In this document: piece by piece, positions 3,746 to 47,600 of the stretch
How positions within the stretch are numbered: the first letter of the stretch is position 1
Layout: every line of letters begins with the position of its first letter
Origin: Gossypium raimondii
Taxonomy: Eukaryota > Streptophyta > Magnoliopsida > Malvales > Malvaceae
DNA length: 64,000 nucleotides
Direction: 5' to 3'
NCBI RefSeq assembly: GCF_025698545.1
Contig: NC_068569.1
Location: 27,218,001-27,282,000, forward strand
Notes under the pieces: generated by a model
What the model saw: only the letters and a program-made list of their open reading frames with translations
What the model was told of the DNA's origin: nothing
Database searches by the model: none
Translations under genes and position numbers: made by a program

Positions 3746-5019
3746 TAATGGAACACTGAAACACAAAAATAATAGTGAGACTTACATAACTTAAGTGAGC
3801 ACAACATTACTAGTTGCTTTTTTTTTTTTGTAATTACAATATTGGAGAAGGGAAAAAAGTTAGAAGAGGATGACAATATTTGAATTAGTGTCATTTAGAT
3901 GACAAACAGGAATTTTAGCTGCTACTCCAAATAAGTCTTGTCGACATTACCGGTCCTAGAAATTAGATTCTAATGCTGATATATAATAAATTAGTAATAT
4001 TTGATCTATATGTACAAGAAAAATATTAATGTTTACTATATTATTCAAAAGAAGTGCTATATAAATATTTACTAAATATTGTATATAAAAAAATACTTTT
4101 TGTTTATGTATTATATAGTTTTTAAAATAAATATTTACAAAAATGTTAATTATTAAAGTGAAACATGTATGTAGAAAAAACATTGTTTTTATTTTTAAAT
4201 CTATTCTAATACTTTTTTAAGTTTTAAAAACTTGATTGTTTCTATTTTTTATTTTAAAATGAAAAAAAAAAGCTATACGAGGCTTTGACGTTTTTGGCAA
4301 AGATTAACGCCTCAATTTTTGAAGGTTTGGGTTTGAGTTTCACTATCTACATTTGTGATGTATATATGTTTTATGTGGTTTTTGTTCAATTTCTTTTAAG
4401 ATATTGTCTGGCTTTGTATGGTTCTTCATCCGTTGTGCATTGTATTAATCGAATATTCTACATATCATTGTAGTTGGTTGAACTTTTAATTATACTATCT
4501 TATATTAGTGAAACTTTCAAATAAAAAGTGTTACATAAATATCTACTAAACATTGTATATCAAAAAATTCTTTCACAATTTATATTTTCATATTTTTATA
4601 TCATCTTTAAATAAAATAATTAATAATCTAAGGATCAAACATGTGTTCAATAGCATTAAATATAATTTGTTACCACTCCATTTAAGTAAAATATACAAGA
4701 AAATATTTTATGTTTGAAATATTTCCTTCGTTCACATCATAAACGGGACAAAATCTAGTTATTATTTAAATCACTAATTGAACTACTGAATACCAATTCG
4801 ATTAGAGAAATTCTTAAACTACTCTTATTTAAAATAAGTTATATTCTTACCATCGTGCTTTTGTCTTTTTACATTTTAAATAATACCAATAAAAACTACA
4901 ATTGATGAGATTTGAACACATGTAATTAATATGCACAAAACCTCAACTTTATCACTACAATCAGAGCTTCATTTTTGTTCTTTTTGTGCATTTAATATTA
5001 TTACACAAAAATTTCACGT

Positions 5020-5595
5020 AGAGTTGTCCATGGGTCAAGTAAAAATTTTAGGCCCGGGCCCAAGCCAGCCCGAAAATGAGCCTAAAATTTTGCTCAAGCC
5101 TGGCTCACCTGTATTAAAATTTTTTATATTATTTTTATATAAAAAATTTAAAATACAATATATCAAATACACTAAAAACATTAAAATAAATGTTTCCCAA
5201 CAAATGGGAAAAATTTTAAAAATATATTTAAATAACATTAAGATAAATGCAACTTAGCAAGTAAATACCTCTAAAATAATAGCAAAATTAATAATAATAA
5301 TAATAGAAAGTTATACAATATTCAAACAATAACAACAAAATAGTAACAATATAATAGTGAAATTATAGTAAAACAATAAAAAATAGTGACAAAACAGTTA
5401 AAAAAAGCAACAGTTTTTTTGGGGCAAATTCAAGCCAAGTCCGAGCAAAAAAAAAAGCTTACTCGAGGCTTGACCCATTTAAAAAATTGGCATTATTTTT
5501 TTGTCCAAGCTCATTTTTCGAGCCTATATTTTTGTCCAAATCCTCTCACTTTTCGGGCAGACCTTCGAGCTAGGCCAGGACAAATATAGTTTCAC
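5020..5595. repeat. Degraded dispersed repeat with GGCCCGGGC-type ends
   Basis: GC-richer ends (around 5,030-5,110 and 5,440-5,590) flank an AT-rich middle. The ends are roughly inverted to each other, with 'gggcccaagccagcccg' on one side and phrases such as 'ttttcgggcagacc' on the other. A related but diverged copy lies at about 36,905-37,395. This looks like a non-autonomous DNA element or its relic. I could not fix exact ends or a target duplication. Confidence 0.4.
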
Positions 5596-7137
5596 CCACA
5601 TTATTAGTATATTGATAATGCCATTGATTAAGTTTATGTCACAAGTCAATATTCTTTATAACAAGATAACATCTTAACATTTTGATAACATGTTAAATAA
5701 TGCTACCTAACATGATAGCATTTTAATATGCTATATAAAAAAATGACAGTATGAGCTAGAAAGTAATTGGAGTACATTTAATATTTTTAATCACATGTAT
5801 TTACTTATTTAAATTTATTTTACTCACAATTTAAAATTACACTAATTTATTTTATTATAATTTCGTATATATTGCATTTGCATATATGTTATTATTAGTG
5901 TCAAACAATATGTTTCATTATTTATTAAATATTATTTTTAAATACATATTTGTATTCTAAATACGTGTACACTCATGGTAGAATTACTAGTAATATCTAT
6001 ACTTATTATAAAGCCCTTGTTAAGTTTGTGCCATGAGTTAACCAGATACTAACTTAGTTAGAAAAGACAAAAATGTTCTCATTTTACAAAATAGATTATA
6101 TTATTTTAAGGGTATATTTGTCATTTTATATATTTATATAGAAGAACAAAAAATAAACATAAAGTAGGTTTAAACTCATGCCTTTTAGGTTTTCACAATT
6201 ATAGTTTACGGTTGAACCAAAACTTCATTTATTATTAATATTAAATTTTTATAAATGTATTTATTACGTAAATTTATTTTTCACCCGCATCATAAATGTT
6301 TCGTAACCTAATTTTAATTATTCATGTGCAAAGAAATATGCTGAAAAAAAATTGTTTTCATTTTTAAATCAATTCAAATACCTTTTGTGTTTTATTTTTA
6401 AAAGCTTGGTTGTTTCTTAAAACCTTTTATTTTTATATTGGTTTTAATTTTAATTTTAGCCATGCTATTGTTAGACTTTCTCACAATAGTACGTAAGGAC
6501 AGTGTTTATAAAATAGGTTTCTAAATAATGAGGTGAAGGATAAGTTATCTCATTTATTATTTTTTGTACATCATTGATAATTAAAATTTTTAGCAGTAAA
6601 TTTTAATTGATCGGAGCTCATTGTCAAGTGGTCTAATGATAGTGAGTTAAGATGTAATTTTAACAATTTTAATCGATGGGATGCATTTTGGTTTATTTCT
6701 TTAATTCTTTTAGTGTTATCATTATTACGGATTTATTTTTCTATTTTTTGGGAGATTATTTAGTAAACATGATATTTGTACATTAATTTATTGTATTTTA
6801 TATTGTAGAAATTTCTTAAAATAATATGGATAAAATCGAAATGATATGTGAAATACACCAAAATATGAATACACCAAAAAAAAAGGAGATACAGATAATG
6901 TGAATCCTCTTATTTGAGTAACAATTATGTTTTTTTTTTTCCATCACAAATAATAATAGATGAGGAATGAGAATAATAATTAGGATTAAGAATATAATTA
7001 AATCTAAAGTAATAATAAAGTAAAGTTTAAATTGTAAGCAAAATCAAAATTAAAGACAGGGTTGTGTTTGTCGAGACTTGATTTTTATTGTTTACATAGA
7101 TTTGTCTGGAAATACAATGAAAACACTTCAAACAAAA

Positions 7138-7986
7138 CAGTGTTTCAGAGTCAAACATGTCCAAAGCACTCTCAAACAAATAAATTAACCCCCCCCCCCC
7201 CCCAAAAGAAATACCATTTTTGAAACTCAAAAAGTAGTACTTTCAACAAAGCTTCTATCTCTCTCCTCTTCTCCTTTTCGTGCTCTTCGCCTTTCCCAAC
7301 AGGTAATCCCCCCCCCCCTCCCTTTCTTTCTTCCTTTCTTTTGGTTTTTCTTTTTCCTTTTCTTTATATTCAAGACAAAACCCCAGATCTATTTGTCTTT
7401 ATTATTTTTCCCTTTCTCATGTTGATTCTTTCGTCTTCTTTTCTTTTTCTTTTTGTTTTAATTTTGCATAACAAAGTCAAAGATGGTGAGAAATGAAATG
7501 GGTATCCCTAAAAAGCTTGATTTCTGTGTTATTTTTGTTTCACATAGGACATTTTTGTTATGCATGAACAAGGATGGAGAAGAATGATATGGGTATTTGC
7601 TGGTTGTGGTGGTCTTTTGAGATGGGATTTGTTATATTAGGCTTTTGGGTTATGTTAGTTTATCAATGCCGGTTTCGGGTTTAGGGTTTGAAGAGCTTTG
7701 AATGTATGCATTTATTCTTGAAATCTGATCGTTTCAGTACTGACAAGTAGCGACTTATTTACTTTTGGTTCCATGTATCTTGTTGGACTGAAGTGAGTTG
7801 ATATGGATGGCCAGGTCTAATTCCAGGTTCTAATTTTCGGAGTTGGCTGGTGAAACTTCAAGCTGCAGCTGCGGTGGGTTTCAGGTGGACTTTAGGACTG
7901 ATATAGTTGTTTTCGTAGAGTTTTCTTTTCTTTTCTTTTTTTTCCAGAATTTGTGAAAATAAAGTGGCTTAAGTAAGAGCAACTAT
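7138..7986 (+). promoter_or_regulatory. bZIP leader: 5' UTR exon, leader intron, homologous to the SUVH leader
   Basis: A CT-rich untranslated first exon ends at 7,302 (CAG|GTAATC). Two acceptors fit. One is 'ttttgtttcacatag' ending at 7,547. The other is a strong pyrimidine tract and CAG ending at 7,947. Joining 7,302 to 7,948 gives a leader without upstream ATGs. Using 7,547 adds several upstream ATGs (for example near 7,560-7,590). The segment is collinear with 21,965-22,460 ahead of the SUVH gene. It contains a 15-C run (7,189-7,203) and an 11-C run just after the donor (7,308-7,318). Confidence 0.6.
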
Positions 7987-10295
7987 ATGGGAATTCAGAC
8001 AATGGGGTCCCAAGGTGACAGTGGTAGTAATGGCAAACAGTTGCAATGTCAGCCGATAACACGGCAAAATTCGATGTATAGTCTCACGCTGGATGAGGTC
8101 CAAAATCAATTGGGTGACTTGGGAAAACCTCTAAATAGCATGAACCTAGACGAGCTTCTCAAGAACGTATGGACCTTGGAGGCCAACCAGACCTTGGGTA
8201 TGGAAACTGAAGGAACTGCGGTGACCAATCAAACCTCTCTGCAACGTCAGGCGAGTTTGTCATTAACTAGTGCTTTGAGCAAGAAGACAGTTGATGAGGT
8301 TTGGAAAGATATTCAGCAGAATAAAATCGATGGGGAAAAGAAATCTAGAGAAAGGCAGCCTACCCTTGGAGAAATGACATTGGAGGATTTTCTTGTGAAA
8401 GCTGGAGTTGTCACCGAAGCTTCTACTGATGAAAATGCCGGACCTCCTATTGCTGGGGTCGATCTTAGTGTTGCACCGCAGTTTGCACAACAAGGTCAGT
8501 GGATGCAGTACCCGCAACAACCACAATATCATCATCCACAACAAAGTATAATGGGGGTTTATATGCCAGCCCAACCTATGCCACAGCCTTTAGCCATAGG
8601 GACTACTGGTGTAATGGATGTCTCTTACCCGGAAAACCAGTTGGCATTGCCTTCGCCTTTGATGGGGACATTATCGGATACTCAGGCGTCTGGAAGGAAA
8701 AGAGGTGCCCATGAGGACATAGTTGAAAAAACTGTTGAAAGGAGACAGAAAAGGATGATAAAGAACAGGGAATCTGCAGCACGTTCACGAGCTAGGAAGC
8801 AGGTCAAATTTCATTTGTTTTATCTCTCTCAACTTGACAATCACATTGTTCCATTTTGTATCTCTTTTTTTTCCTTGAAATGTTTTTTGATCTCGCTTTC
8901 TGAATTATCGAGTGAACCTGAAATGTATTTATAAACAGGCTTATACTAATGAACTGGAGAACAAAGTCTCACGTTTAGAAGAGGAAAACGAAAGGCTGAG
9001 GAAACAGAAGGTTAGTTCTGCCTTATGACCCATTTACATTCAATTCATAGATCTCAAAACATTTTATTTTTAAAGTATAATAGCTTCATTTATTTCAACT
9101 TGTTTTGTCAAAATTAGTGTTTTCGTGTATTTACTCGTGTCTTTATTTTGATGACCTGTATGCAGTATGTCCGTATATTCTATATAAAATTGTCATATTT
9201 CATTGAACCATTTTATTGCATTCAGTACTTTCATGTCCATGCCTCTTGCAAATACGTAAGATTTTGAACTTAAAATATGGCCAATGGTTGCTTTAATGCC
9301 ACGATTTTCAATTTTCCATGACTGATGGATGATAATTTAACACTCTAACAGCTTAGAGAATTGAGCCTTTTTATTCGTATATGATACCAGTTGTATCAAA
9401 TCATATGATTTGCAGCTGTTCCTTGTTTAAGTAGATCATATTGTTTACTTGTGTTGCTCCTAACATAACCTAAATGTAACAAAATATTCCAGTTAAATAA
9501 CTAAAAGCCTGCTTTTATCATATATTACCTCGCATGGCAACTACAGAGTCTACTCATTCACCAACACTCCCATTTAAGTCCCAAAATGATAATTGAGACA
9601 AATTGTGGGCTAAACTACTGGTAGACACCATTACCATAAGTTGCTTGAGGATGAACTGATTCTTAACGAAGTAGCTAGAGAGATGCTTAGATGAGTTTTA
9701 CCAGAAGATCAGTAAATGCATCTGCAGGATAGTTTTAGCATATTGTAGAATATAAACATTTACCATAAGAAAGAAATTTTGGACTATAAAATTGTCTATG
9801 GTAGTTGTTCAAGATTTTGGCGGTTGGGTAGCTTTATTTCTTTCTTTCTTCTGTATGCAAAGTTGTGTCCGGAAGTTTGATGGCTCTAAAATGAATTTTT
9901 GTTTGGTTTAGTCCTCTCGGTTACACTGTTGTTGTCAATGTGATCAGTATAGATCACAATATCTTAAATCAAGGTTTTTGAAAGGTACTGCTCATAGTCA
10001 ATAAAAGAAACATTCTGGAACCGTCATTGATATGATTCGTACCCTCTACCATGCTCAGCTGAACCTGCATGAACAGTTAATACTCTTGTATCAGTTATTT
10101 AACATTTCCTGACCTTTACCTTAATGGACCCCAAATCTCTCATCATCTTTTTATGCCTTGGTGCTTATGCATAAAATTCGTTTTCATTCTTGGTTTCTGA
10201 ATTTATATTCTTAGGAGCTCGATAAGATGCTGCCATCTGCACCACCGCCCGAGCCAAAATATCAGCTTCGTAGAACATCATCAGCCCCATTCTAA
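7987..10295 (+). CDS. AREB3: Group-A bZIP transcription factor, ABI5-like 2 / AREB3 (DPBF3) type
   Basis: Exons are 7987-8802, 8939-9010 and 10215-10295, all in phase 0, giving 322 residues. The conserved group-A blocks are in order. C1 is residues 26-62 (RQNSMYSLTLDEVQNQ). C2 is 86-110 (LQRQASLSLTSAL). C3 is 123-142 (RQPTLGEMTLEDFLVKAG). The basic region and leucine zipper are 252-296 (NRESAARSRARKQ and following heptads). The C4 tail ends QLRRTSSAPF. RQNS, RQAS, RQPT and RRTSS match RxxS/T sites that SnRK2 kinases phosphorylate in this family. By family knowledge it binds ACGT-core ABRE elements in the nucleus during ABA and seed responses. Reading on past 8,802 gives an open frame to 8,934, so intron retention would remove the zipper. 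The start could also be Met6. The symbol is by family, not confirmed orthology. Confidence 0.93.
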
Positions 10296-10299
10296 CAGT

Positions 10300-13113
10300 T
10301 CCCGCAGTGGGTAATGTGGAAGTTATTGCATATACAAACCAGCTGCTGGCTTCTGTTTCTAAGTTACAGTTGAGGCATAAGTTAAAAAACCGAGCACCAC
10401 AATCTGCAATGCATCGTCCGGAGGCTGTCATTGTTTCATACGCCGTTGATGGTTGATTCCAACTTGTAAGAGTTTACTTTTTTTTTTTTTTTGGTCTTGT
10501 ATCTACTTTTTTTACTATGAAAATCAATTCAAACTAGCAATTTCATGTTACCTTTGCTTACTGTCTCTAACCATTAAAGTTGGTAAGGTTTGTCCCCAAA
10601 TGTGTAGTTTTGTGCCCTTTTTTTCCTCTCTTGATATGAGCATATAGCCAAGTTTATGTTACAACATACAGACACACACGTGCATGTATGTATGTATGTT
10701 TGCATGCATAGTTGAGAAATACATGCAATTTGAAAATTTGTCCCCCAAAATGAATCATTTGTCGCTTTCTTAGAGCTATTTACCATCTAGCATTGCACTT
10801 AGAAAAAGAAATTAGGTTAAAAAGTTTATATCGTATTTTTATTTTTATTTTTAGGAATTTAGTCTTACTTTTCATATTTTAATATTTAGGTTTAATTATT
10901 AACATTATTAAAATTATTTTGTTAAATTCAGATTCATTAGAATATTACTTTTTAGTTATATGGCTATCAAGTGATTTTATTTTATTTCAAAATCTCATAT
11001 CAACAATTTTAATAAGTAGATTTGAATTTTGAAATTTGAAAAGTTAGAAGATTAAATTTTAAAAATAAAAATATAGGGATTGAATTTCGAATTTGTAAAA
11101 AGTATTAAGGATTTATTGGCTTGTTTACATAAATAATATAAAATAAATAAATAATTACCAAATAAAATTATAAAAATATCAAACCAAATTTAATACTCCA
11201 AACTATTTCTATTCTCGAGACAACTTCAAATTAATTGGCTCAAAGGTAAAAGTTAAATAACTTACAAAACAGTCTTTTGATCAAATAATTGACTCCTCAT
11301 CTCTTAGGAAACGAATGTATTTTTATTTTATTTTATCAAAGAAAAAGAAATAACTTTTAATTTAAAAGTTTTAAAAATATTGGTCTAATTATACTCTTTT
11401 ATATTTTTATCAACCTTTCTTCATTTCATTTTCTCAACATTTGAAAATTAGAGAAAGAAGCAACATAAAGTGAAACCCAAAGCTTTTAGGAAACAATTTT
11501 GCTGGTGGATCTAGAGTTTTTACTCTCTTTTTTTAGGGCTATTTTTTTTAACCTTAGTTTATTTTCTTTTATTTCCAATCAACTTTTTTATTTCCGCTGG
11601 TGTCGCCTGACACATAGGCGATACTATTAAAAAAATATTTTTTTGTAAAAAAATAATGATGACCAAATGATGGAGAGAAAGTGGGAGTGGTATCGCTAGT
11701 GTGTTAGACACACCGACAGGCACTATGTATTTTGCCTATCTTCGTATTTAATTTTTAACTTATCCCATGTTAATAATTTTTTATATTATTTATGTAAAAA
11801 AGTTAGATTTATTACAGAATAATAATTACATATTTTAACCTTTAAATAATACTATTGGAATATGTGGTTAGCTTTTAAAATCCAAAAGATAAATTTTCTC
11901 GTCTCGTTGGTAGATTGCATCATAAAAAGAATTTTGTTTACTTATTTAACAGTACTTTGCGAAAAAATTAAGAAAATAAAAGGTTTTTTCAATTTTCATG
12001 AAAACATTTATAGAACATAGAGTTGTTAAAGCTTAGCCTACTGTTTGTCATTTTCTTTCTGATTTTTATGTATAAAAGAAATCACATTCAATACTTTAGA
12101 AATTCTATCACACGCATATATATGTGAAAATTACAGATCTAGAATATAGGTGTATGTTTTATAATAGCATACAATAAATAATAAAACCGTATAGTTTGAA
12201 ACCAATTAATCATAATAACACATGAAATATGTACGATAATATATACAATTGGTGGAGCTAATAAAGTATGCATAATAAAATTAAAATGTCTAAATAAATC
12301 AAATTAAAATTTTTTTGTTGAGTGGTAAATTTAAAATTTTCTCAATATAATCGGCATGAGTTCAAATCCGTATATACATATTTTTATTGTATTTTTAGCT
12401 TAAAAGACTAAAGTGCTCTCGAATGATATAATTTATGTTAAATATGAAATAGCATTTCCGTAATTTTCTTAATTAAGTTAATGTCCGGTTAACTCATGAT
12501 ACCATATAGATTTTGATATTTGTGTTATACATCAATAACTACCAACCCGAATCTCAAATAGGATTCAAGTCACCTACTTGTACTGCGCTACACGTAATTT
12601 ACGCAATCAATTTTTATTAATTTTTAAATAATGTATATTTAATTATTATAATTAATTTTAATTTGTTATTCGACTTGTTAAATATAACTTATTTAACAAT
12701 TCAAATAGAATAAAAGAAATGTTTAAATACCATATTAAAATATTGATATTTTACATATCAATAAATTTTATATTAATATTTAAAATTTTTCAAATCATAA
12801 TTAAAATACTTGTACTATTTTCCACCTACAATATAATTTTTACATCATGTAATCATTATTTAAAATAATAACTAATAAGCGTTATTAAAATGTATTAATT
12901 ATTTTGATAATTCAAATATAGTATTAGTAAAAAATCATATTATTAAAGCATTTGTTAAAACAATAAGAAATTGATATATAGTAAAATAAACTCTTCACTA
13001 TTTAATTATATTTTTTAATTTTCTTAATAGTCAATAAATTGACTATAATTATTTATAATTAGTATATAATTAATATGTAGCAAAAATATAAAACCAAGTA
13101 AAATATTTAAAGA
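10300..13113. other. bZIP 3' flank and intergenic region
   Basis: The first few hundred bases are probably the bZIP 3' UTR. The rest is AT-rich and non-coding, with short microsatellite-like runs (ATGT repeats near 10,685-10,715). No gene is supported. Around 11,590-11,740, phrases such as 'gtggtatcgctagtg' recall the foldback element at 37-39 kb, but I could not delimit an element. Confidence 0.5.
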
Positions 13114-18214: not shown

Positions 18215-21200
18215 CAAACTCATATTTTTATATATATATATATATTATAAATAAATGACTTAATGATTAAATTGTTGTGACTTTAAGGGTAAACTTTTGG
18301 CAATTCTACGGTGTTTTATATGAGGATGATTTGTAGAGATTGGTCACTATTCAAAGGGCATATAAAAGGGATTACAATCCTTGTAGTACACAACTTTGAG
18401 AGCACCAAATCCATGTTATAGGAGTTGTCTTGTCTGATGCATTAATGAGATTGTTTTCTTATTGAGAGAAGTGCTTACGCCCTTCAATAGGAAGGTGTAT
18501 GGAACTTGAGTGATGTGAACCCTGAAAAGGTCAATTTAAGTTCAAGAATGATACATGGATGAATAGAGTAAAAATTATTAAATTAAATTCACTAAATTTG
18601 ATGTTTTTAAAGTTTGGAATATCAGTTAACTTAACATATCAATCCAAGTTTAGAAGATCAGGTTATGATTGCTTTAGTGAATACTGCATTAGTAGAAATT
18701 TATGAATGAGTTTAATATAATTTTTTTAGTTGAAGATCTTGGATCAATATTTAAATCAAAGAATCCACATTTCAAGTCAAATTTGGCCTCAATGAGCCCA
18801 AAGAGTTGTGACACATAAGAGTTTTATTTACATAAGTATTTATATAAATAGGGACCTTAGGCCACCCTTTCTAAGCATAAAATACAATTGAGTAAGAGTT
18901 GAAGTTTTTTTTTTTTTTTTTTTACTTTGCATGAATTAAGCTTTCTTTGAGAGTTAATGATTATTCTCTTATTTACTTTTGGAATTTGTTATTTTCAAGT
19001 TTTCGGGGACTTATAAATTTTTAAGCTTCAAGTTCGATTACCGATGTTTCCAGGAATTCTTCTAAAGATTTCATAGGGGTTTGAGTTCAATCTTGACGTT
19101 TTCAGATACAAGATATCGAATGGTTCTATAAGACTAATTTATCTTTCTATTTTCTTTACTCTTTTATTTCAAATTTAACTTTGGTTTCTTATACTAAATC
19201 TTGGGTTTCCACGTCATTGAGGTTCATGTATAAGTATCCTTAGAAGTGTACAATAATCTTAGGATTGATTGGTAGTGGAGTCTTGATTTGGGTAGACGTA
19301 AATGTATTCCCCGAATTGAGGTTCATATATTTATTATTTTTCATTTCTATCTCAAAGTGTCTTAAAACAGCAACGTAAAATAATAAGAATATATAACTTC
19401 TTTTGTACATGTTGAGTCACCTTGTAGATTATTTCTTTTCCTTTTAAAATCTTTACTTCTTACCAACATACTAATGGTAATCAAATTAGAGGTTTTACCT
19501 AAGATTTTTTTTGATAAATAAAAATATTTACAGAGCTATAATCTATATCTATATATATTATAAAACCAACTTTTAAGGAGTCATTAGGAGTAAATAGGGT
19601 ATTGTAGTAATTTGTAATCATTGGGAATTAGTGGGGCAAAATGGGTAGCTTACCAACACTCTTTTGTTATGAATAAAGGCATTATGAAAATTTAAATATA
19701 ATAATATTTTAAATTATTATTAAATCACTAATCAAAATGCAACTATTTTTATATAATATCAAGCGAGACATACCATGGGCTAAAAGAGATTTCACTATGA
19801 TAAAAGGAGAATACAAGAGATAGAGGGAATTTTAAAAAAAAAAACCAGAAACTCACAAGAAAAACCCTTCAAAGCAAAGAACAAAATTCTCTCAACCTAA
19901 ATATTTCTGTTGTGTATCTAACCTAGAATAACTGTGACCTATTTATAGCCTAAAATTCGTAGGATAATTTGACTAGAATATCCTTAGGTTAATAAGAGTT
20001 TCGAATAACAATTTTATATTATAAATCATAAATGATGACAAGGAAATAATAACATAAAGATTGTTAAGTAAAGAATGATATACTTTTTTATTCATCCTTT
20101 TAGTAAGTAGATATGATTTAGTTAATTTGTTAACAATAAATTATAATTTTATCTTGATTCAATGTTTTAAAATTTCCTTTTAATTAATTAATAAATATTT
20201 CAACATATTTTTTATTACTTTCCAAACAACTATATTTTTTAAATGCTTGATAAATACTTTTATTTGTCCGTTGTTACATTTTTTTTAAAATTTATATTAT
20301 TAATTTCGATAGATGTTACAATATTTCTCCGTACATATATAAGTATAGGTGTTGCCCCAACGTGTTGAAGTTGACATTTAACCCTTTGTTTCAAGGTTTT
20401 GGGAGGGAAAGGGTGAGTGAGGAGGGAATCAACATGGTTGAAGAGCAATGGCTTACTATGCCCAAAGTTGAACCATTAGAGCTCCTTAATTTATAAAATT
20501 GTTTGCTATTTGTTAATTTCTTTATTTCAAGTTTGCTTTTTAGTTTTTATAATTCTTCGTAAAGAATGTTAGCCATGAGTTTCATTATTTTCTACAATAA
20601 AGAAACATGCATGGATGAAAGATTGTACATTGATATTCCTTGGGTTGGTGACAAATTTTATTAAGGAACTGAGTTAGGATATGAAAGCTCGTGTTATCGA
20701 GATTATGCTTCTTGGTGTTGTTTTCTAATCTATTTATGTAAGATATTGCATAAATATGTTATCATGAATAAAATAATATTTTCATTGTTTATATCTATCC
20801 ATGTCCTCTTTAGTTATTTGTAATGAAAAAAAAAAGCTTTAAATATTAATTTGAAAATCTAGATATAATTTAGGGCTAATTTGTAAATAAACCAAAATTG
20901 TACTACTAAAATAATATTACTATAAACATTAAACAACTATAAATTGATAGGTAATTATTTATGACGTTATCATCTATTTAGGATTTAATAGTGATGTTTT
21001 GAACTAAGTTAAAATTGACAATCAAAGCAATAAATATGTAATAACTTTTGTTATTACATATGATTTTATCATTTAATAATAAAAATAAAATTCATTATTA
21101 TATAATTAATATGAATTAACTAAAAATAAACAATTACATAAATATAAACTAAATATTGTCTAATAAATTCTTACCATTATTATTTCAAATTAAAACCAGT

Positions 21201-21960
21201 AACTTCGTAAGATAACTTCGCAAGATAAATCCATAATCAATAGGAAATAGACATGTTGCGATCTCTTCCCAACAAGTTCATGATCGAAGCCGGTGGAGAT
21301 CTAAATAAACGTATCAAAGAACTACCTGTATCAGCACATTTAGGCATGTGATAAGCAACACCGTCAATAGTTCTCGGAAAATGTCAGATACAAATATTCC
21401 ATTTTTGACGCAAAGCTTAGTGTAACAGCCGCAGTTCCACTAAACTACTACTAGCTCCTCCACCAGACAATAATTATTACTCAATATCTCTTACACATTA
21501 GTTTGCATAACGATAATTATTTCTCAATGTCTCTCATTAAACACTAATTATTTTGGTTCTTTTATTTAATATTAACATTTCAAATCTTTTCTATCTCAAC
21601 TAGTTTAGTAAAACATATCTTTATATAAATTATGATTTGATATATCGACAATTGAGTTTTTAATTCTATAAATGAAATTAAGAAACCGTCATGTATCCCA
21701 TTTATTTATTTCTTATTATTTTAAATATAAATTAAAGATATAAATTTTAAAAATAAACATAATGTTATAATATTAATTTTTCAAAATTTTAATTCGTTAA
21801 TTATAGCAAAAAAAATTGTGGTATTATTTTTGGATTTTGTGAAAAGAGAAATCACATTTCATTACATGCATAAATGGTATGCAGATTATATATGGTAATA
21901 AATATCCAGAGAGGATTTCTGTAGAAAGAGGAGCAAAAGCAGTTTTAATAATTGAAATAG
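18215..21960. other. Intergenic region with retroelement relics
   Basis: No gene is supported. About 18,590-19,500 looks like a decayed Copia LTR (listed separately). A block at 19,800-20,000 has a minus-strand TATA-like 'ctatttatag' and could be another LTR scrap. At about 21,190-21,460 base composition rises and the minus strand reads partly like protein (for example 'SSLIRLFRSPPASIMNLL') with stops. I do not recognise it; it may be a gene fragment. The last 100 bases are the SUVH promoter region. Confidence 0.45.
18590..19500 (+). mobile_element. Decayed Copia-like LTR with primer-binding-site relic
   Basis: A TATA-like 'tataaataggga' near 18,840 is followed by text typical of plant Copia leader regions ('gaggttcatgtataag', 'attgaggttcatatattt'). 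Near 19,473 comes 'aatggtaatcaaattagagg', a degraded form of the initiator-Met primer site TGGTATCAGAGC. No second LTR or coding part is present. The left end is uncertain. Confidence 0.35.
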
Positions 21961-21964
21961 AAAC

Positions 21965-23044
21965 ACAGTGGCAGTCAAACGTGTACAAAGCAGTGAACAC
22001 TTCTCCAAAAAAAAGACACATTTCGAAACTCATAAAGTTCATACATCAAACTTTCACTCTCTCTTTCTTTACTTTAGTTTCCTCTTCTCCCTTTCTTCTT
22101 TGCTCTTCTCCTTCCACCAGGTAATACTACGCGCCCCTTTTTTTTCTTACTTTTTTGGAACAATCATTTTCTTTTCATATGTTCAAAGAGAGAAGAATCT
22201 TAGATCTATTTTTATTTACTTTTTGTTTTCTGTTGATTTCTTTTATATAATTTGTTGGGTTTTTTTTTTTTTGCATAACTAAGTTCGAAGTTTGTGAAAA
22301 AAAAATGAAGTGGGTGTCACTTGGTTCTAATGAAGAATGGATTTTTGTTCCCAGAAGGCTTGATTTTTTTTTTGTGTAATTATGTTTCACATAGGGAATT
22401 GAATTTGTGCTTGAACAAATTAAGAATAAGGTTGGAGAAAAAATGGAATTGGTATTTTCTGGTTTTGAATAAAAGGGGGGAATTTTTAGTTTGAAACCCT
22501 AATTTTTGTTTAATTTTGGTTCAAACGGGAACTTAGTTTTGTGCATAAAAGAGGGTAAAGTGGAGTGACTTGAAGAAAAGGGGAAAAGGAAGTTGGTGGA
22601 AAAGTTTGATTTTTGTGTAATTTTGGTTCACACAGGACACTGGTTTTGTGCATCAACATGTCTAGGATTGAGCAAATTAAAATGGGTATGTCTTGTTTTT
22701 GAGGAAAAAGGGAAATTTTTGGTTAAAAATCCTGATTTCTGTGTAATTTTGGTTCATACAAGAGGTTGCTTCTGTGCATAAAAGAGGGGAAAATGGTGGA
22801 AAAGCTTGATTTTTGTGTAATTTTGTTTCACATAGGACATTGGTTTTGTGCCTAAACATGTCAAGGATTGAGTAAAATGAAATAGGTACGAGGTAAAAGG
22901 GAAAATTTTGGTTTAAAACCGTAATTGTTTTATTTTTGCTTTATACAGGAGCTTGGTTTTGTGCATAGAAGAGGGAAAACTGGATTGATTTAAAGAAAAA
23001 AGGGGGAAAAATACTTTGGCTGAAAAGCTTTAGTTTTGTTTGAA
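21965..23044 (+). promoter_or_regulatory. SUVH leader: 5' UTR exon, splice donor and tandemly repeated acceptor cassettes
   Basis: A CT-rich untranslated exon ends at 22,120 (CCACCAG|GTAATACT). From about 22,340 to 23,040 a unit recurs as three double units. Each has the order 'aaagcttgatttttgtgtaa', then a T-rich stretch, 'cacataggacat', 'tggttttgtg', and a purine-rich tail. Candidate acceptors end at 22,394, 22,635, 22,762, 22,835 and 22,948; the last ('tttatttttgctttatacag') looks best. Acceptor 22,948 gives a leader without upstream ATGs. Acceptor 22,835 adds two short upstream ORFs (22,858-22,875 and 22,877-22,885). The first part is homologous to the bZIP leader at 7,138-7,700. Confidence 0.6.
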
Positions 23045-25018
23045 ATGGAAGGAGGGTTAGGTGGAAACACCGGTCCAACAAATCCTAGTGATAAATCTAA
23101 AGTTTTGGATGTAAAGCCACTACGGACATTGGTTCCGTTATTCCCCGAGCCACCTGAGGGTCCTCCTTTTGTCTGTGTACCTCCTAATGGCCCTTTCCTG
23201 TCTGGGTTTTCACCATTTTTCCCTTTTAGTGGACAACAAGTATCCCAACCTACACCTGACCTTAACCAAAATTACTTAAATTCAACTGCTGTTCCGCTTC
23301 GGTCAGTTAGAGCCGAACCAGCACCAGCTTCTGGCAATGGCAGTCATAAACACAAGTCAGCCGGACCAAGTTCTGTGAAGAAGAAAGCAAAGAGGCGAAA
23401 AGATTCAGAGTCTGTATTAACTTCTCTTATGAATTTCAATCCTGGAATCAGTTTATCCGAACGAGATGATGGTAACAGGCAATTGGTCGAAAGTGTGCTT
23501 TTGAGGTTTGATGCACTTAGGAGAAAGCTTAGCCAAATGGAAGATGCTAAGGAATTACATTCCAGTATTATTAAGCGTTCAGACTTGAAAGCTGCCAACA
23601 TGATGTTGACCAAAGGGGTGCGGACTAACATGAAAAAGAGAATCGGGGTTGTTCCGGGTGTTGAAATCGGGGACATTTTCTTCTTCCGGATGGAGCTATC
23701 TTTAGTGGGGTTGCATTTTCCATCCATGGCTGGAATTGACTACATGGCTATCAAGAGCGGCGATTTAGAGGGTGAGCGAGTGGCTTTAAGCATCGTTTCA
23801 TCTGGAGGGTATGATGATGATGCTGAAGATCCTGATGTTTTGGTATATAGTGGTCAAGGTGGGAGTGCCAGTAGAGATAAAGAAGCATCCGATCAGCAGC
23901 TTGTAAGGGGCAATCTTGCTTTGGAAAGGAGCTTCCACCGAGGAAATGAAGTACGAGTCATTCGGGGTTTGAAAGATAATGTCCATCAAATGTCGAAGGT
24001 CTATGTGTATGACGGGCTTTACAAGATCCAAGAATCGTGGATGGAGAAAGGGAAATCGGGTTGCAACATGTTCAAGTATAAGTTGGGAAGGATCCCTGGG
24101 CAGCCAGCTGCTTTTGCCACATGGAAATCAATTCAGAAGTGGAAAGAAGGTCTTCCTTCGAGGGCCGGACTTATTATTCCCGACCTCACTTCAGGTGCAG
24201 AAAGCACACCTGTTTCACTCGTAAATGAGGTTGATGATGAAAAGGGGCCTGCTTACTTCACATATTCCCCAACTATCAAGTATTCAAAACCATTCAAGTT
24301 AGTGCAACCTTCTTATGCTTGCAGCTGCCATGATGCGTGTCAACCTGGAAATTCTAACTGCTCCTGCATTCAAAAGAACGGGGGCGATTTCCCTTACACC
24401 ACCAATGGGGTTCTAGCGTGTCGAAAACCCATGATTTATGAGTGTGGTCCCACTTGCCCTTGTATTCGGAACTGCAAAAACCGAGTTATACAAACTGGTT
24501 TGAAAGCTCACTTAGAAGTTTTCAAGACAAGAGATCGTGGTTGGGGTCTACGGTCATGGGACCCTATTCGAGCAGGTACATTTATTTGTGAATATGCAGG
24601 TGAAGTTATTGATGAAACCAAGGCAAGGCAGGAAAGTGGAGATGGTGAAAGCGAGTACATTTTTCATACGAACCGTCTCTACGAATCCTTCAAGTGGAAT
24701 TTCGAAGCCGAAAGTAGCGAAGATTTTGATATCCCGTCTCCCGTAATCATAAGTTCAAAGAACAGTGGAAATGTAGCTAGATTTATGAACCATAGTTGCA
24801 CCCCAAATGTTTTCTGGCAGCCAGTGATGTATGAACATAACAACGAAGCGTTTCTCCATATTGCTTTCTTTGCAAAGAAACACATCCCTCCTATGACAGA
24901 GTTGACGTTCGATTACGGTATTCCGCAATCAGGGGAGACCCAAGCCGACAACCCCCCGGCAAACGGAAGGAAGAAATGCTTATGCGGATCACCGAAATGC
25001 CGAGGCTATTTCTATTGA
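23045..25018 (+). CDS. SUVH3: Histone H3K9 methyltransferase, SUVH1/SUVH3 type
   Basis: Intronless, 657 residues from the ATG at 23,045; a frame opening at 23,036 begins with TTG and is not the start. The N-terminal part is Pro-rich, with a basic stretch near residue 110-120 (KKKAKRRK) that looks like a nuclear signal. The YDG/SRA domain, which recognises methylated cytosine in this family, is about 199-367. The Cys-rich pre-SET domain is about 425-479 (CSCHDACQPGNSNCSC, CGPTCPC). The SET domain is about 488-624, with the cofactor/catalytic motifs RFMNHSCTPN and LTFDYG. Post-SET is CLCGSPKCRGYFY at the end. All zinc and catalytic motifs appear intact. Lack of introns and length (Arabidopsis SUVH3 is about 669) fit the SUVH1/3 branch. 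Members of this branch can act as readers that support transcription of methylated promoters as well as silencers, so the direction of effect cannot be read here. Confidence 0.95.
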   Translation: MEGGLGGNTGPTNPSDKSKVLDVKPLRTLVPLFPEPPEGPPFVCVPPNGPFLSGFSPFFPFSGQQVSQPTPDLNQNYLNSTAVPLRSVRAEPAPASGNGSHKHKSAGPSSVKKKAKRRKDSESVLTSLMNFNPGISLSERDDGNRQLVESVLLRFDALRRKLSQMEDAKELHSSIIKRSDLKAANMMLTKGVRTNMKKRIGVVPGVEIGDIFFFRMELSLVGLHFPSMAGIDYMAIKSGDLEGERVALSIVSSGGYDDDAEDPDVLVYSGQGGSASRDKEASDQQLVRGNLALERSFHRGNEVRVIRGLKDNVHQMSKVYVYDGLYKIQESWMEKGKSGCNMFKYKLGRIPGQPAAFATWKSIQKWKEGLPSRAGLIIPDLTSGAESTPVSLVNEVDDEKGPAYFTYSPTIKYSKPFKLVQPSYACSCHDACQPGNSNCSCIQKNGGDFPYTTNGVLACRKPMIYECGPTCPCIRNCKNRVIQTGLKAHLEVFKTRDRGWGLRSWDPIRAGTFICEYAGEVIDETKARQESGDGESEYIFHTNRLYESFKWNFEAESSEDFDIPSPVIISSKNSGNVARFMNHSCTPNVFWQPVMYEHNNEAFLHIAFFAKKHIPPMTELTFDYGIPQSGETQADNPPANGRKKCLCGSPKCRGYFY

Positions 25019-25785
25019 GCTTCGGTTGCGAACTTTTTGGCCTCTGGAAGGAGGTATTGGATCTAGCTCATCTTTGTCTAAAAATCATGCAACTCTCTAT
25101 AGTGCATTATATATTTAAATGTTAATAGCTTGTTGTCATGCTATATGGCTGCCATTAAATTGCAGAAGAACTGGAAAACCATGTTTGATGGTGATTTTGT
25201 AGTCTATCTTGTAGAAATGGGAATCAGTCAATGGTTCAAGTTAAATGGCAAATTACTTGGTATTTAACTTGAACAAAATTAAGGTTTAATTTTTTGGTAA
25301 AGAAAGATGTGGTCCAAACTTGGCATTAAATATTTAATGAAGTGAAATGACAGTTACTTTGAATGTCGTATCATAACATTACTTTTTCTAGTTAGGAGAC
25401 AAATCAAAGTTTTGTTGACATACTTTCTGACCCTATCATCTTTAATGATGATTCAAGTGGTCCTATCCATTTTATATTAACATCAATTACAAAATTAACA
25501 CATGTTCAATTAAAATTTTGATGTGCCTCCAAATATTAGTCCAATTGCACTCCAATTTTAGTCTATCTACCTTAATTGGTTAGTCTCCTCTTTATTTCCA
25601 AGAATTTATCATTTTTTACTTTTTCAGATCTAATTATTAACACTCTTGAAATTATTTTATTAAATTCAAGTTTATTATAATGTCCTATTGTTAATTATAT
25701 TGTTACCAAGTGAACTTTTTATTTTAAAATGTCACATCAATAAATTTAACATTATGTATTTTTTAAGAAATAAACTATATTAGGA
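25019..25785. other. SUVH 3' flank, AT-rich intergenic
   Basis: The first 250 bases are the likely 3' UTR, including 'tatatttaaatgttaata' as a possible polyadenylation region. I see no gene or clear element in the rest. Confidence 0.5.
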
Positions 25786-25789
25786 TCAT

Positions 25790-26560
25790 CCTAAAAGTAT
25801 AGTTTTAGGCACCAATAAACGTCGTTAAATTTTAAAGATAACGAAGTATTATTATACGCTCATCTATATCTAATATTTTCTCTCACTTAATTTAATTTTA
25901 ATTAAATTACTTAAAATAATTAATTTTTAAATTATAAATGAATATTTTCTTCTTTTACAAATCTTAATCTTTTTTTTTCTGTAAGTTAATATTTTTTATT
26001 TTTGTGCAACCAATTTTTTTAAAAAAATAATAATTTTTATGCAATTTTTTTCATATCATTAACATATAATTTTAGTAATTATTTCAACTTGAATCCAGAA
26101 CCTCGAACCTTGAATCTTAAACCTTGAACCCCAAACCTTGAGGTTTCGGGTTTATGATTTAAGGTTTAGGGTTTGAGGCTCAAAGTTTAGATTTAGGGTT
26201 TAGTGATTTAGAGTTTAGGGTTCAGGTTCAAGGTTCAAGGGTTCAGTGTTACGAGTTACAAGTTCGAGATTCAGGATTCGGGTTCAAGGTTAAAGGGTCC
26301 AGGGTTACAGGTTCAGGTTTTGGGGTTCTATATTTTGAGTTCAAGGTTCGAGATTACCAAAATCATGTGTCAGTGACATGAAAAAGATTGTCTAAATGTA
26401 ATTAAATAATTAGAAAGGGACCATGAATAACGTGGTGGGAAGGGTTCATAAAATAATTTCTTTATGGATGGGTGTATAATAATAATTTCATGTCTTTAAA
26501 TTTGATGATATGACAAATTTTTATTGGTGCTTAAAAACCTTAGTTTTTAATATTTTTTTA
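25790..26560. mobile_element. Inverted-repeat element with telomere-like internal repeats
   Basis: The left arm (about 25,800-25,880: 'ggcaccaataaacgtcg', 'ttattatacgctcatc') is matched on the other strand by the right arm (about 26,455-26,540: complement of 'gatgggtgtataataataa' and 'attggtgcttaaaaac'). Between them, 26,095-26,350 is a run of degenerate GGTTYA/TTTAGGG-like units. The first 50 bases of that run face the rest in inverted orientation, so a hairpin is centred near 26,145. No transposase is present. It is a MULE- or MITE-like non-autonomous element. Target duplication was not resolved. Confidence 0.6.
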
Positions 26561-40774: not shown

Positions 40775-41872
40775 GCTATTTTACCAAAAAAACCTTTTTT
40801 TTTCAATATTTACCGAAATGGGCCGGTTTTTTAATTATTTACCGGAATGGGCCATTTTCAGCGAAATCGCGTCCACGTAAGCGCGATGTCAGGGTACATG
40901 TCAGGACATCGCGTCCACGTCAGCGCGATTTGCTGACGTGGACACAAGTCGCGTCCTTGAGGGAGCGATTTGCTGACGTGGCATGAACAATTTATGTTTT
41001 TAAGCTTGGAAAACTTTGAAAGGCCATAACTTTTGGCTCGGTTGTCCGATTGAGACGATTTTTTTTTTTGATTTCGAATAAATTTTCGAGATCTACGCTG
41101 AAAACCGCTTAGAGATGAATATAGACTAATTTGTAAAGTATAATTTGTTAGTTACAGTATAGGGACTAAAGTGTAATTATTTCAAAATTAGCATGAAATT
41201 TTTATATTTAAGAATATTTGAATGTTATGGAAGGATGAAATTGAATTTGAATTGAAAAACGAAGCTTAGATTTGAAAATATGACTATTTAGGTTTTAGGG
41301 ACTAAATTGAATAAAATGGAAAATTTTAGGGAACTTCTCAAAAGTGGAATGAGCTGACTTATACCTATAACAGGATGATATAAGACAATTCTGTAAAAAA
41401 ATATCCGGTGTTTACTTCAAATAAATAAGGAAAATAATGATTTGAATGTTTCAAAATTCAATTTTAAACCGAAAAAATCAAAATTTAGGGGCAAAAAGGG
41501 ATCTTTTTCAACGAAAACTGCGGCAAACCGCCTTTGGCGATTTGTCAGCGCGTAGATCTCGAAAATTTATTCAAAATCAAAAAAAAAATCGTCTCAATCG
41601 GACAACCGAGCCAAAATTTATGGCCTTTCAAAGTTTTCCAAGCTTAAAAACATAAACTGTTCATGCCACGTCAGCAAATCGCTCCCTCAAGGACGCGATT
41701 TGTGTCCACGTAAGCAAATCGCGCTGACGTGGACGCGATGTCCTGACAGTACCCTGACATCGCGCTTACGTGGACGCGATTTCGCGGAAAATGGCCCATT
41801 CCGGTAAATAATTAAAAAACCGGCCCATTTTGGTAAATATTGAAAAAAAGGGCTTTTTTTGGTCATTTGCCC
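40775..41872. mobile_element. Non-autonomous Mutator-like element (MULE) with TIRs of about 330 bp
   Basis: Two inverted arms (about 40,775-41,105 and 41,545-41,872) match almost base for base through 'gggccggttttttaattatt', 'gcgatttgctgacgtgg', 'cttggaaaactttgaaaggc' and 'ttttcgagatct'. The element is flanked by a direct 10 bp duplication TAAATCTTGG (40,765-40,774 and 41,873-41,882). Long TIRs plus a 9-11 bp duplication indicate the Mutator superfamily. The 440 bp interior has no transposase. Each arm holds several ACGT-core sites (CCACGTAA, CCACGTCA, TGACGTGG). The near-identity of the arms suggests a fairly recent insertion. Confidence 0.88.
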
Positions 41873-44661: not shown

Positions 44662-47600
44662 ATGGGGATAAGTTTGGTGAAGCTGGTGGTGTGGGTTTCA
44701 TGGTTGGCAATGGCGGTGGGAGCTGAGTATGTAAAGTACAAAGATCCCAAGCAACCAGTAGCTGCTAGAATTAAGGATCTAATGTCCAAAATGACACTGG
44801 CTGAGAAGATTGGTCAAATGGCCCAGATTGATAGAAGTGTTGCTACTGAACAGATACTCAGAGATTACTCCGTTGGTAATAATAATTTTCACCATTTTTA
44901 TTTTTATTTTTGATCCTTTGTTTTAGTTCTGGTTACTGTTTTTGGCAATGATTTTCATCCCTTTTTTTGTGGGTTCTGATTATTGTTTGTTGATGGGGTG
45001 GTCTGCCACAGTTTGTATGTAGTAACCTTAAAATAGTAAAAATATTATGATACCACATTTTAGAAAGTAATGCTCATTATTATCTACTCATACTTTTATT
45101 GCTTAAAGTTATAGTTTGGGTATACTTGAATGTTGGTTCATTGTCAATCTTTTGATCTGATATGTTCGGATTTTTCTTTCTCTTTGATGATGTACACATG
45201 GTAGGGACATATTCGGGTGATCCTCTATATATATTAAAAAAATTGAGTATGCCTATACTTGGCAGTCAACCCGAAGGCCGGATAACATAGTTATATCAGT
45301 TTACAGTTAAGATTTGACAGCATTTGTTTCCTTCACAGGGAGTGTGTTAAGTGGTGGTGGAAGCGAACCGCTTCCAGAGGCTAAGGCTGAGGATTGGATC
45401 AATATGGTTAATGCTTTTCAGAACGGATCTCTGTCTAGTCGTTTAGGAATTCCTATGATTTATGGCATTGATGCTATTCATGGACATAACAATGTTTACA
45501 ATGCTACAATATTTCCACATAACGTGGGGCTCGGTGCAACCGGGTAAGCATAGATTTTGATTCAGTTTCTGCTGATATTTGTCGTAGAATCATTAAATTA
45601 CTGTACTTTTTCACTCTTTAACCTTCCATTCTTTAGTTGAAAGCTTAGAAACGATGTTGCCATCAAAAGAAACAAAGAGGATTACATTAGTAACAGTTTT
45701 GGGTCAATTAAATGATGTCACATTTATATCTTCATTCGAGGAACTTCACTATCATTTTCCTGAAAGGAAAGATAGAGTCAAGCTAATATTGCTCCTCAAT
45801 TCAACCATAAACTCCATTCAAATGAATATGCAGAGATCCTGAGCTGGTGAAGAAGATTGGTGCTGCAACTGCTCTTGAAGTGAGAGCTACCGGGATTCCT
45901 TATGTTTTTGCTCCATGCATTGCGGTATTTACATACTTTTAATAAGATCAGACAGTTGCGTCTAGTAATTTCAACTCTTCTGCATGCTTGCTGCATCTGA
46001 ATTCACCACGCTGCAATACAACCCTTTTTTCTTGGCGTTTTCTTTATAGGTATGTAGAGATCCAAGGTGGGGTCGGTGTTATGAAAGCTACAGTGAGGAT
46101 CATAAAGTTGTGGAACAGATGACTGATATCATACTTGGGTTGCAAGGAGATCCTCCTACGTCGCGCAAGGGGGTTCCATACGTTGGTGGGAAGTATGAAA
46201 CTTGTCCAAGTTAACATACTTTCATATTGTAGAATTGTATATACTCTTAGAATTCCTTTGATAATGGTTCTAACTCCAAGGAGCTACTCTTCTAAGTTTC
46301 TTTTTCTAATGCCATAGATTCACACTCCTCGTCATACTCTTCAAAGTCCAGTGATCTAGATAAGTACTAGATTCAATCTTGCATTGCTTTCCCTTTTCAT
46401 TTGCCTCGGATGCTCCCTGAATATCATGGTTTATATAGTCTTCTTGTTAGTCACGGATAGTACAATCTGCAGCTTATATTTGGTATGGCATCACTAATGA
46501 TGCCTCGATATCATATACTGTGTAAATAATATAGTGTGTGCCATCATGTTTATAGTGCTTGTTTTCCCTCTTTATTCTGTTCTTCCTTTCTGTCAGGGGC
46601 AAGGTTGCAGCTTGTGCGAAGCACTTTGTAGGTGATGGTGGGACAACTGGGGGCATCAACGAAAACAACACCGTGATTGACATGCATGGGTTGCTTAGCA
46701 TGTACATGCCTGCCTATTCTCAATCTATCATCAAGGGTGTTTCGACAGTCATGGTTTCCTACTCCAGCTGGAATGGGCAAAAGATGCATGCAAACCGTGA
46801 GCTGATTTCTGGTTTCCTTAAGAACACTCTTAAGTTTAAGGTTGAGCCTTGTTACAGATCTTTATCAGTAACAAAAATTTGCAAATTTAGAACATAATGG
46901 AAATCCCATTATTCTTTAAAATATTGGACCAAAATATTGATATATCCGTATTATCTTAAAGTAAGAACTGCTAATTTTGTACTATGATATTTTCCTGTTA
47001 ATGCAAATTGTTGTTTCCATGGATTTTCAGGGTTTTGTAATATCAGATTGGCAGGGAATAGACAGGATCACCTCACCACCACATGCAAACTATACATACT
47101 CTGTTCAAGCTGCGATTCAAGCTGGGATCGACATGGTTAGTAGCTTCTGCATAGACATGTTTCAAATAAAATCGAAGATAACTGCTTTCTTGCAATTATT
47201 TTGTTTAGTGTAAAACTTGGACGTTGACAGCATGTGGATGCATTCTAAGACTTGGAGCCTCTTGATCCGTGTTCTGCAGGTCATGGTCCCCTTCAACCTT
47301 ACCGAGTTCATAGACGATCTAACCTATCTAGTGGATAGCAAAGTTATTCTGATGGATCGTATTGATGATGCGGTGCAAAGAATTTTGCAAGTCAAATTCA
47401 CTATGGGACTCTTTGAGACACCTATGGCTGATTTTAGTCTAGTTAATGAGCTCGGAAGCCAGGTTGGTTAGTAAATTGTAACATGCGAGATTATTTTCAT
47501 CTCTGTCCAGTTTTCTTTGGTTGTATAAATCCAAAATTTAATATCCATTACCTTGTTTTCCGTAAATCAATCATTATATTTGTTGGTCTTTCTAATTTTC

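Follow-up and report, generated by a model that had tools for sequence, protein, structure and literature searches.

The window analysed here, a stretch of 64,000 nucleotides of Gossypium raimondii (C5:27218001-27282000), contains a bZIP transcription factor gene, bZIP-b, which is probably a chimera generated by one tandem duplication, composed of a 5' end from the SUVH lineage and, from position 7610 onwards, of a duplicate of the gene bZIP-a. The promoter-proximal and exon-1 part of bZIP-b (approximately 165 bases), as well as the next 300 or so bases of its leader, would have been derived from the SUVH lineage, and bZIP-b would be transcribed from an SUVH-type start and leader. The original prediction stated that one of two unrelated genes had captured the leader and the proximal promoter of the other, or else that a promoter block had been duplicated. 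Capture of leader and proximal promoter is well supported. The direction of this capture, as we infer it, was likely from the SUVH lineage to bZIP-b.

The three genes in question follow one another on the forward strand in the order bZIP-a (C5:27190263), bZIP-b (27225987) and SUVH (27241045). bZIP-a, a tandem paralogue of bZIP-b on the same strand, lies outside the window, 36 kb upstream of bZIP-b, and SUVH, which encodes a histone methyltransferase, is located about 15 kb downstream of bZIP-b. The spliced product of bZIP-b is a protein of 322 aa, encoded by three exons and devoid of internal stops, and the gene is intact; bZIP-a is also intact, and the two proteins exhibit 89% amino acid identity across 321 aligned codons. 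The Pfam domain bZIP_1 scores 25.2 bits against a cut-off of 27.6 in the unspliced first open frame of bZIP-b, in which an intron splits the domain. Members of group A of the bZIP family (the ABA type) combine the bZIP domain with conserved N-terminal motifs and with the C-terminal LRRTSSAPF, and the bZIP of the window may belong to this group. The SUVH protein contains its Pfam domains in the expected order (SAD_SRA 200-353, Pre-SET 383-480, SET 499-625), and its best solved relatives are SUVH6, 9 and 4. The features of both genes are collected in Table 1.

Elsewhere in the window, positions 46559-48642 contain exons with the Pfam N- and C-terminal domains of glycosyl hydrolase family 3, and positions 40783-41098 and 41550-41863 form an inverted repeat of 316 bases (96% identical), perhaps a foldback or MITE-like element. 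A degenerate array with a 7-base period (AGGTTTA-like) occupies positions 26088-26311, downstream of SUVH, and resembles interstitial telomere-type repeats.

Table 1. Features of the bZIP-b and SUVH genes in the window (position 1 is its first base)
Feature	Positions	Strand	Remarks
Putatively SUVH-derived proximal promoter and untranslated exon 1 of bZIP-b	7138..7302	+	aligned to ~21960-22120
Putative first leader intron of bZIP-b, likely SUVH-derived	7303..7547	+	alignable with SUVH C5, C13, C4, C6b
Candidate untranslated cassette exon, a single leader unit of SUVH type	7548..7592	+	AG before, GG/GTATTT after
Final bases of likely SUVH origin, from the donor-like GTATTTGC of the unit	7593..7608	+
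Junction, SUVH homology to bZIP-a homology	7608..7610	+
bZIP-derived rest of leader intron and 5' UTR	7610..7986	+	7610-7666 88%, from 7784 81% to bZIP-a
bZIP-b coding exon 1	7987..8802	+
bZIP-b coding exon 2 (leucine zipper)	8939..9010	+
bZIP-b coding exon 3 with stop	10215..10295	+
bZIP-b 3' flank, homology to bZIP-a persists	10296..10624	+
SUVH proximal promoter and untranslated exon 1	21960..22120	+	donor GTAATAC at 22121
SUVH leader intron region, six degenerate unit copies, whole or partial	22121..23040	+
SUVH coding sequence, 657 aa, single exon	23045..25018	+	SRA, Pre-SET, SET

Leader homology and the junction

According to the global alignment, positions 7138-7608, before bZIP-b, are collinear with approximately 21960-22468, before SUVH. 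Comparison of the whole window with itself by BLAST aligned 7264-7509 with 22080-22321 (69%, E 4e-12) and 7511-7595 with 22800-22888 (79%, E 3e-13). The local score of 7138-7610 against 21940-22480 lies 19 SD above dinucleotide shuffles, none of which (0/500, under either of two scoring schemes) matched the real score, and neither did any of the 371 overlapping control windows taken from the surrounding 104 kb. Masking of the C/T and A tracts, which removes 27-30% of the bases of the leader block, left a score of 34, compared to a mean of 20.3 and a maximum of 31 in 500 shuffles. Thus, the pairwise alignment of both leaders that had been proposed as a check reveals a collinear match that is significant even with the low-complexity tracts masked, and the landmarks listed at the outset for the exon, the donor and the intron are carried by both places in identical order.

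The sharing upstream of the exon-1 donor is short, amounting to about 165 bases with exon 1 included, and positions 7130-7260 alone exhibit z 7.2 against the SUVH gene of the window (0/300 shuffles). Collinear homology 5' of 7138 was not found when 6900-7137, 6600-7137 and 6000-6600 were compared with 20900-21960 (z 0.2, -0.5 and 0.7, respectively). One non-collinear, A+T-rich match from an unmasked search (4519-4587 against 21124-21185, 75%, E 4e-6) was set aside. The bZIP-b leader contains C runs of 15 bases at 7189-7203 and of 11 bases at 7308-7318, which are missing where the SUVH leader aligns.

Exon 1 of bZIP-b ends with CAG at 7302, and the putative first leader intron begins with the donor GTAATC, carries GATCTATTT at intron position +84 and ends with TTTCACATAG. 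In the leader intron of SUVH, positions 22356-22980 constitute a degenerate array of one unit with splice-site-like ends; the units often begin with AG, similar to a 3' splice site, and end with GTATTT, similar to a 5' splice site. A profile search with a permissive cut-off (E up to 0.1) and six seed copies identified the unit 24 times, whole or partial, across seven leaders, with a copy number that differs among the SUVH paralogues and with several further copies lacking the AG or the second half. The copy in bZIP-b (7511-7607) matched the profile with E 2e-23, being itself one of the six seeds. In the alignment of five leaders, all five rows (5/5) keep AG/G where the first full unit starts and GGTAT where it ends, so that the unit resembles a putative untranslated cassette exon bounded by splice signals; the losses in the further copies argue against this.

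The homology to SUVH stops at 7608 and that to bZIP-a starts at 7610, i.e. 15-17 bases past the donor-like GT at 7593 that follows the candidate cassette exon. From there, the homology to bZIP-a comprises 7610-7666 and then continues in pieces from 7784 to 10624. On the 5' side of the junction, comparison of 7300-7606 with the corresponding stretch of bZIP-a yielded z -0.8, and on its 3' side, comparison of 7611-7800 with the SUVH leader past the block (22450-23044) yielded z 0.0. The shared block, which had been drawn as 7138-7700, therefore holds for 7138-7608, and its remainder belongs to a bZIP-derived stretch (7611-7800). Hence, the 5' part of bZIP-b is homologous to SUVH, the 3' part is homologous to bZIP-a, and the junction between them is sharp, as befits a chimera.

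In bZIP-a, the leader comprises a C/T-rich exon and an intron of its own, both unrelated to SUVH. In exact form, the intron-enhancement motif TTNGATYTG occurs once in the intron of bZIP-a and is absent from the leader intron of bZIP-b. Among the 37 genome matches to bZIP, 12 loci were cut out (bZIP-b and 11 others), and the SUVH-type leader was found in 0/11 of these others, bZIP-a included, each reaching 1.5 kb upstream of the coding match. The leaders of the more distant bZIP genes on C13 and C6 gave no usable match to either of the two bZIP leaders.

CACTA elements on C11, C10 and C3 contain in their interior, at 94-96% identity, a fragment of at most 0.76 kb from bZIP-a that covers its promoter, its first exon and the beginning of its intron (source stretch C5:27188779-27189541). 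The copy on C11 spans 6.8 kb and that on C10 6.2 kb, with the ends CACTACACCA...TGGTGTAGTG and 3-base flanking repeats CTT and GTG. These elements represent a Pack-CACTA-like capture followed by multiplication, and bZIP-a is probably the donor, because the fragment sits inside the elements on all three contigs. For this reason we rejected the explanation that the bZIP-a leader, which recurs at 93-96% on C11, C10 and C3, is a recent insertion. Pieces of a diverged relative from the same CACTA family (about 70-87%) are located between bZIP-a and bZIP-b, at C5:27200413-27206843 (window -17587 to -11157).

The SUVH leader across the genome

The genome searched comprises 750.8 Mb in 281 contigs; its large sequences are numbered up to C13, which suggests 13 chromosomes and, together with the size, presumably a diploid cotton. 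In the whole-genome DNA searches only the best candidates were scored and common words were skipped, which limits their sensitivity. The query from the bZIP-b leader (7138-7700) returned four matches, namely itself, the SUVH gene of the window, a place on C8, and bZIP-a, the last of which matches only positions 473-526 of the query, i.e. its bZIP-derived part. The query from the SUVH leader returned ten matches: one to itself, two to bZIP-b and seven to five other places, all of which (5/5) lie directly before an SUVH coding sequence or an SUVH remnant. Full-length SUVH genes with the leader (approximately 78% at the amino acid level) are present on C13 and C4, and remnants with the leader on C6 (two truncated N-terminal frames, 127 aa to the first stop) and C8 (a fragment). 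The possibility that the leader stands before many unrelated genes, which was raised together with the original prediction, is not borne out by the best-scored matches, all of which are to SUVH or to the bZIP genes of this locus, and the leader was accordingly rejected as a dispersed repeat.

Eight long matches to SUVH were obtained in the genome (C5, C13, C4, C11, C8:51.36 Mb, C12, C9 and C2), and the leader was found at those on C5, C13 and C4. Of the other five, the paralogue on C11 (62% at the amino acid level) was inspected directly: its 1.6 kb of fetched sequence is free of the leader, with 0 unit matches, and the sole notable matches upstream of this gene fall in a C/T tract about 1.4 kb away (E down to 3e-7, unmasked). 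The leader appears to belong to one SUVH subclade. The two truncated SUVH copies on C6 (C6:56046227 and C6:56305580) are very similar to each other and stand in opposite orientation, approximately 260 kb apart; their 10-kb loci contain the N-terminus only and nothing that matches residues 189-657, and the copy at C6:56305580 retains the SUVH-type exon 1 and the start of the intron.

With respect to the donor, the exon and mid-intron segments of the bZIP-b leader obtained their top scores against SUVH-C5 among the four SUVH leaders tested. The unit segment scored 93 against C13, 90 against C4 and 85 against the first unit of SUVH-C5, and a later unit of SUVH-C5 is 79% identical to the unit of bZIP-b. 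Compared to the other SUVH leaders, positions 7130-7260 exhibit z 2.9 with C4 (3/300), 0.2 with C13 and -0.3 with C6b. The distance between the leaders of bZIP-b and SUVH-C5 (0.36) is the lowest of the ten pairs among five leaders (0.39-0.44 for the others), and the tree of these leaders groups SUVH-C5 with C6b (support 58) and C13 with C4 (support 74), with no clade of bZIP-b and SUVH-C5.

The dS value is 0.45 (0.33-0.58) for the pair of bZIP genes and 0.60-0.74 for three pairs of SUVH genes, with two of the three intervals overlapping that of the bZIP pair. Because the SUVH values are higher, the leader seems to have spread among the SUVH genes before bZIP was duplicated. With dN of 0.048 and dN/dS of approximately 0.11 (0.048/0.446), both bZIP proteins are intact and constrained by purifying selection. 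The leader distance (0.36-0.38) falls within the range of the non-coding distances between bZIP-a and bZIP-b (0.19-0.48) and near their synonymous difference (0.34), which fits, without proving, a scenario in which the leader and the bZIP copies would have parted in one event.

Proposed tandem duplication and its alternatives

The most economical origin of bZIP-b would be one tandem duplication of a segment with one end in the leader intron of bZIP and the other in that of SUVH. At the new junction, the end of the bZIP intron would be fused to the promoter, the first exon and the beginning of the intron of SUVH, and the outer copies, bZIP-a and SUVH, would remain whole. Because both breakpoints would be situated in leader introns, the fused transcript could still be spliced and the coding sequence would be untouched. 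The observed order and strand of bZIP-a, bZIP-b and SUVH, with both intact parents flanking the chimera, are what the model requires. We infer the single duplication, the start site, the splicing and the change of expression. The model also predicts duplicated spacers, and none was detected past the 3' flank of bZIP: z was 0.8 for 10625-10900 and 1.0 for 11300-12000, a weak signal (z 3.1, 2/150) came from 10625-11300, a stretch that holds a repeat also present at 25606-25749, and a blastp comparison of 107 spacer-2 frames (at least 35 aa) with 325 spacer-1 frames returned one marginal match (E 0.009). Unconstrained A+T-rich DNA need not stay alignable at dS 0.45.

An identical junction would be produced if a second SUVH copy had once existed upstream of bZIP-b and a deletion that took away both its coding sequence and the promoter of bZIP-b had fused the two, and SUVH remnants are indeed known elsewhere (C6, C8). 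We regard this history as rather unlikely, since it requires separate duplications of bZIP and SUVH in addition to the deletion, and since tblastn searches of the 104-kb region revealed no remnant of an SUVH coding sequence in the interval between the two bZIP genes, the matches beyond the SUVH gene itself being three fragments with E 1.7, 2.1 and 7.4. Delivery of the SUVH leader by a transposable element in the style of Pack-CACTA or Pack-MULE, with no tandem duplication, is in our opinion unlikely, even if the CACTA family with its 0.76 kb of bZIP-a and the diverged relative between the two bZIP genes demonstrate that such capture does occur at the locus. An element carrying the SUVH leader was not found in the whole-genome DNA searches (best candidates scored), no CACTA match falls near 7138-7610 among the best 15 matches for each of three elements, and the bZIP-a promoter was not found 5' of bZIP-b, save for the A+T-rich 5129-5190 (E 6e-5). 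Moreover, an insertion fails to explain why the bZIP homology starts exactly where the SUVH homology ends, and why this happens beside the donor gene.

The opposite direction, in which the leader originally belonged to bZIP, was taken by an SUVH ancestor and was later lost by bZIP-a, might draw on the view, given in the passages of PMC3063831, that the coding regions of most SUVH genes contain no introns, that these genes are considered retrogenes and that some of them acquired regulatory elements, as well as on the C11 paralogue, in which the 1.6 kb fetched contain no leader. Nonetheless, we deem it very improbable, given that dS is higher for the leader-bearing SUVH pairs (0.60-0.74) than for the bZIP pair (0.45), albeit with partly overlapping intervals, that the leader matches 0/11 other bZIP loci, and that the promoter segment of bZIP-b is clearly similar to one SUVH rather than to all of them equally. 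Finally, composition alone, i.e. convergence of C/T-rich exons, T-rich introns and the enhancer-like motifs of plant leader introns, has a negligible chance of accounting for the similarity. Low-complexity tracts do make up 27-30% of the block, but the shuffles, the control windows and the unrelated bZIP-a leader all score far lower, the masked leader still scores over all 500 shuffles, the complex unit is 73-79% identical to the SUVH leaders (67% to the collinear SUVH-C5 copy), and the bZIP-b intron is devoid of exact copies of TTNGATYTG. The low-complexity reading is thus refuted by the shuffles, the control windows and the masked comparison.

On a more speculative reading, to which we assign a fairly low probability, an old promoter swap would have placed an ABA-type bZIP under an SUVH start and spliced leader and, judging from dS, would probably have been kept for tens of millions of years; the two genes could share alternative untranslated cassette exons and be co-regulated thereby. 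We hypothesize, in line with the original prediction, that an ABA-pathway factor may in this way be coupled to a chromatin modifier. The donor, the chimera and the paralogue with the native promoter are found together within about 51 kb after dS of approximately 0.45, and the natural pair of bZIP proteins, 89% identical and with two different leaders to their genes, makes a direct comparison possible.

Comparison with known systems

Pack-type transposons (Pack-MULE, Pack-CACTA) carry promoter and exon fragments between genes. Capture of this type occurs beside the bZIP locus, whereas the SUVH leader was found without element borders or dispersed copies. In the open-licence PMC literature, no report of a bZIP-SUVH chimera occurs among the matches listed, as judged by titles and the starts of abstracts. 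The bZIP family of upland cotton includes seven tandem pairs (PMC9736030), and the SET genes of Gossypium raimondii include the single-exon triplet GrKMT1A;4b/4c/4d (PMC5013442); 5' UTRs go unmentioned in the passages of these two articles that we consulted.

The mechanism as such, promoter exchange by tandem duplication, is known, with precedents in maize Bif3 and in Drosophila yakuba; what differs here is that an old copy has been kept. In the maize Barren inflorescence3 allele (ZmWUS1-B), a tandem duplication puts three elements of the neighbouring gene, its promoter, its first exon and a portion of its first intron, before the second copy of a transcription factor gene (PMC8062686), and bZIP-b would resemble it in all these elements. 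On the other hand, Bif3 is a mutant allele absent from a panel of inbred lines, while the bZIP-b event is old; Bif3 retains 444 bp of the native promoter, with a junction sequence of 119 bp, whereas the native promoter of bZIP-b was not found; and bZIP-b, unlike Bif3, would have both breakpoints in leader introns (PMC8062686). In Drosophila yakuba, tandem duplications with internal breakpoints shuffle 5' ends and alter expression (PMC5460883), and the likeness to bZIP-b would consist in the shuffling of UTRs by this very type of event. These variants are young and polymorphic, in contrast to bZIP-b, an old duplicate in which both proteins are under purifying selection (PMC5460883). Thus, compared to the cases described in the passages of PMC8062686 and PMC5460883, which concern a mutant allele or young polymorphisms, bZIP-b would provide an old, retained example, which makes it possible to trace across related species what becomes of a promoter after its capture.
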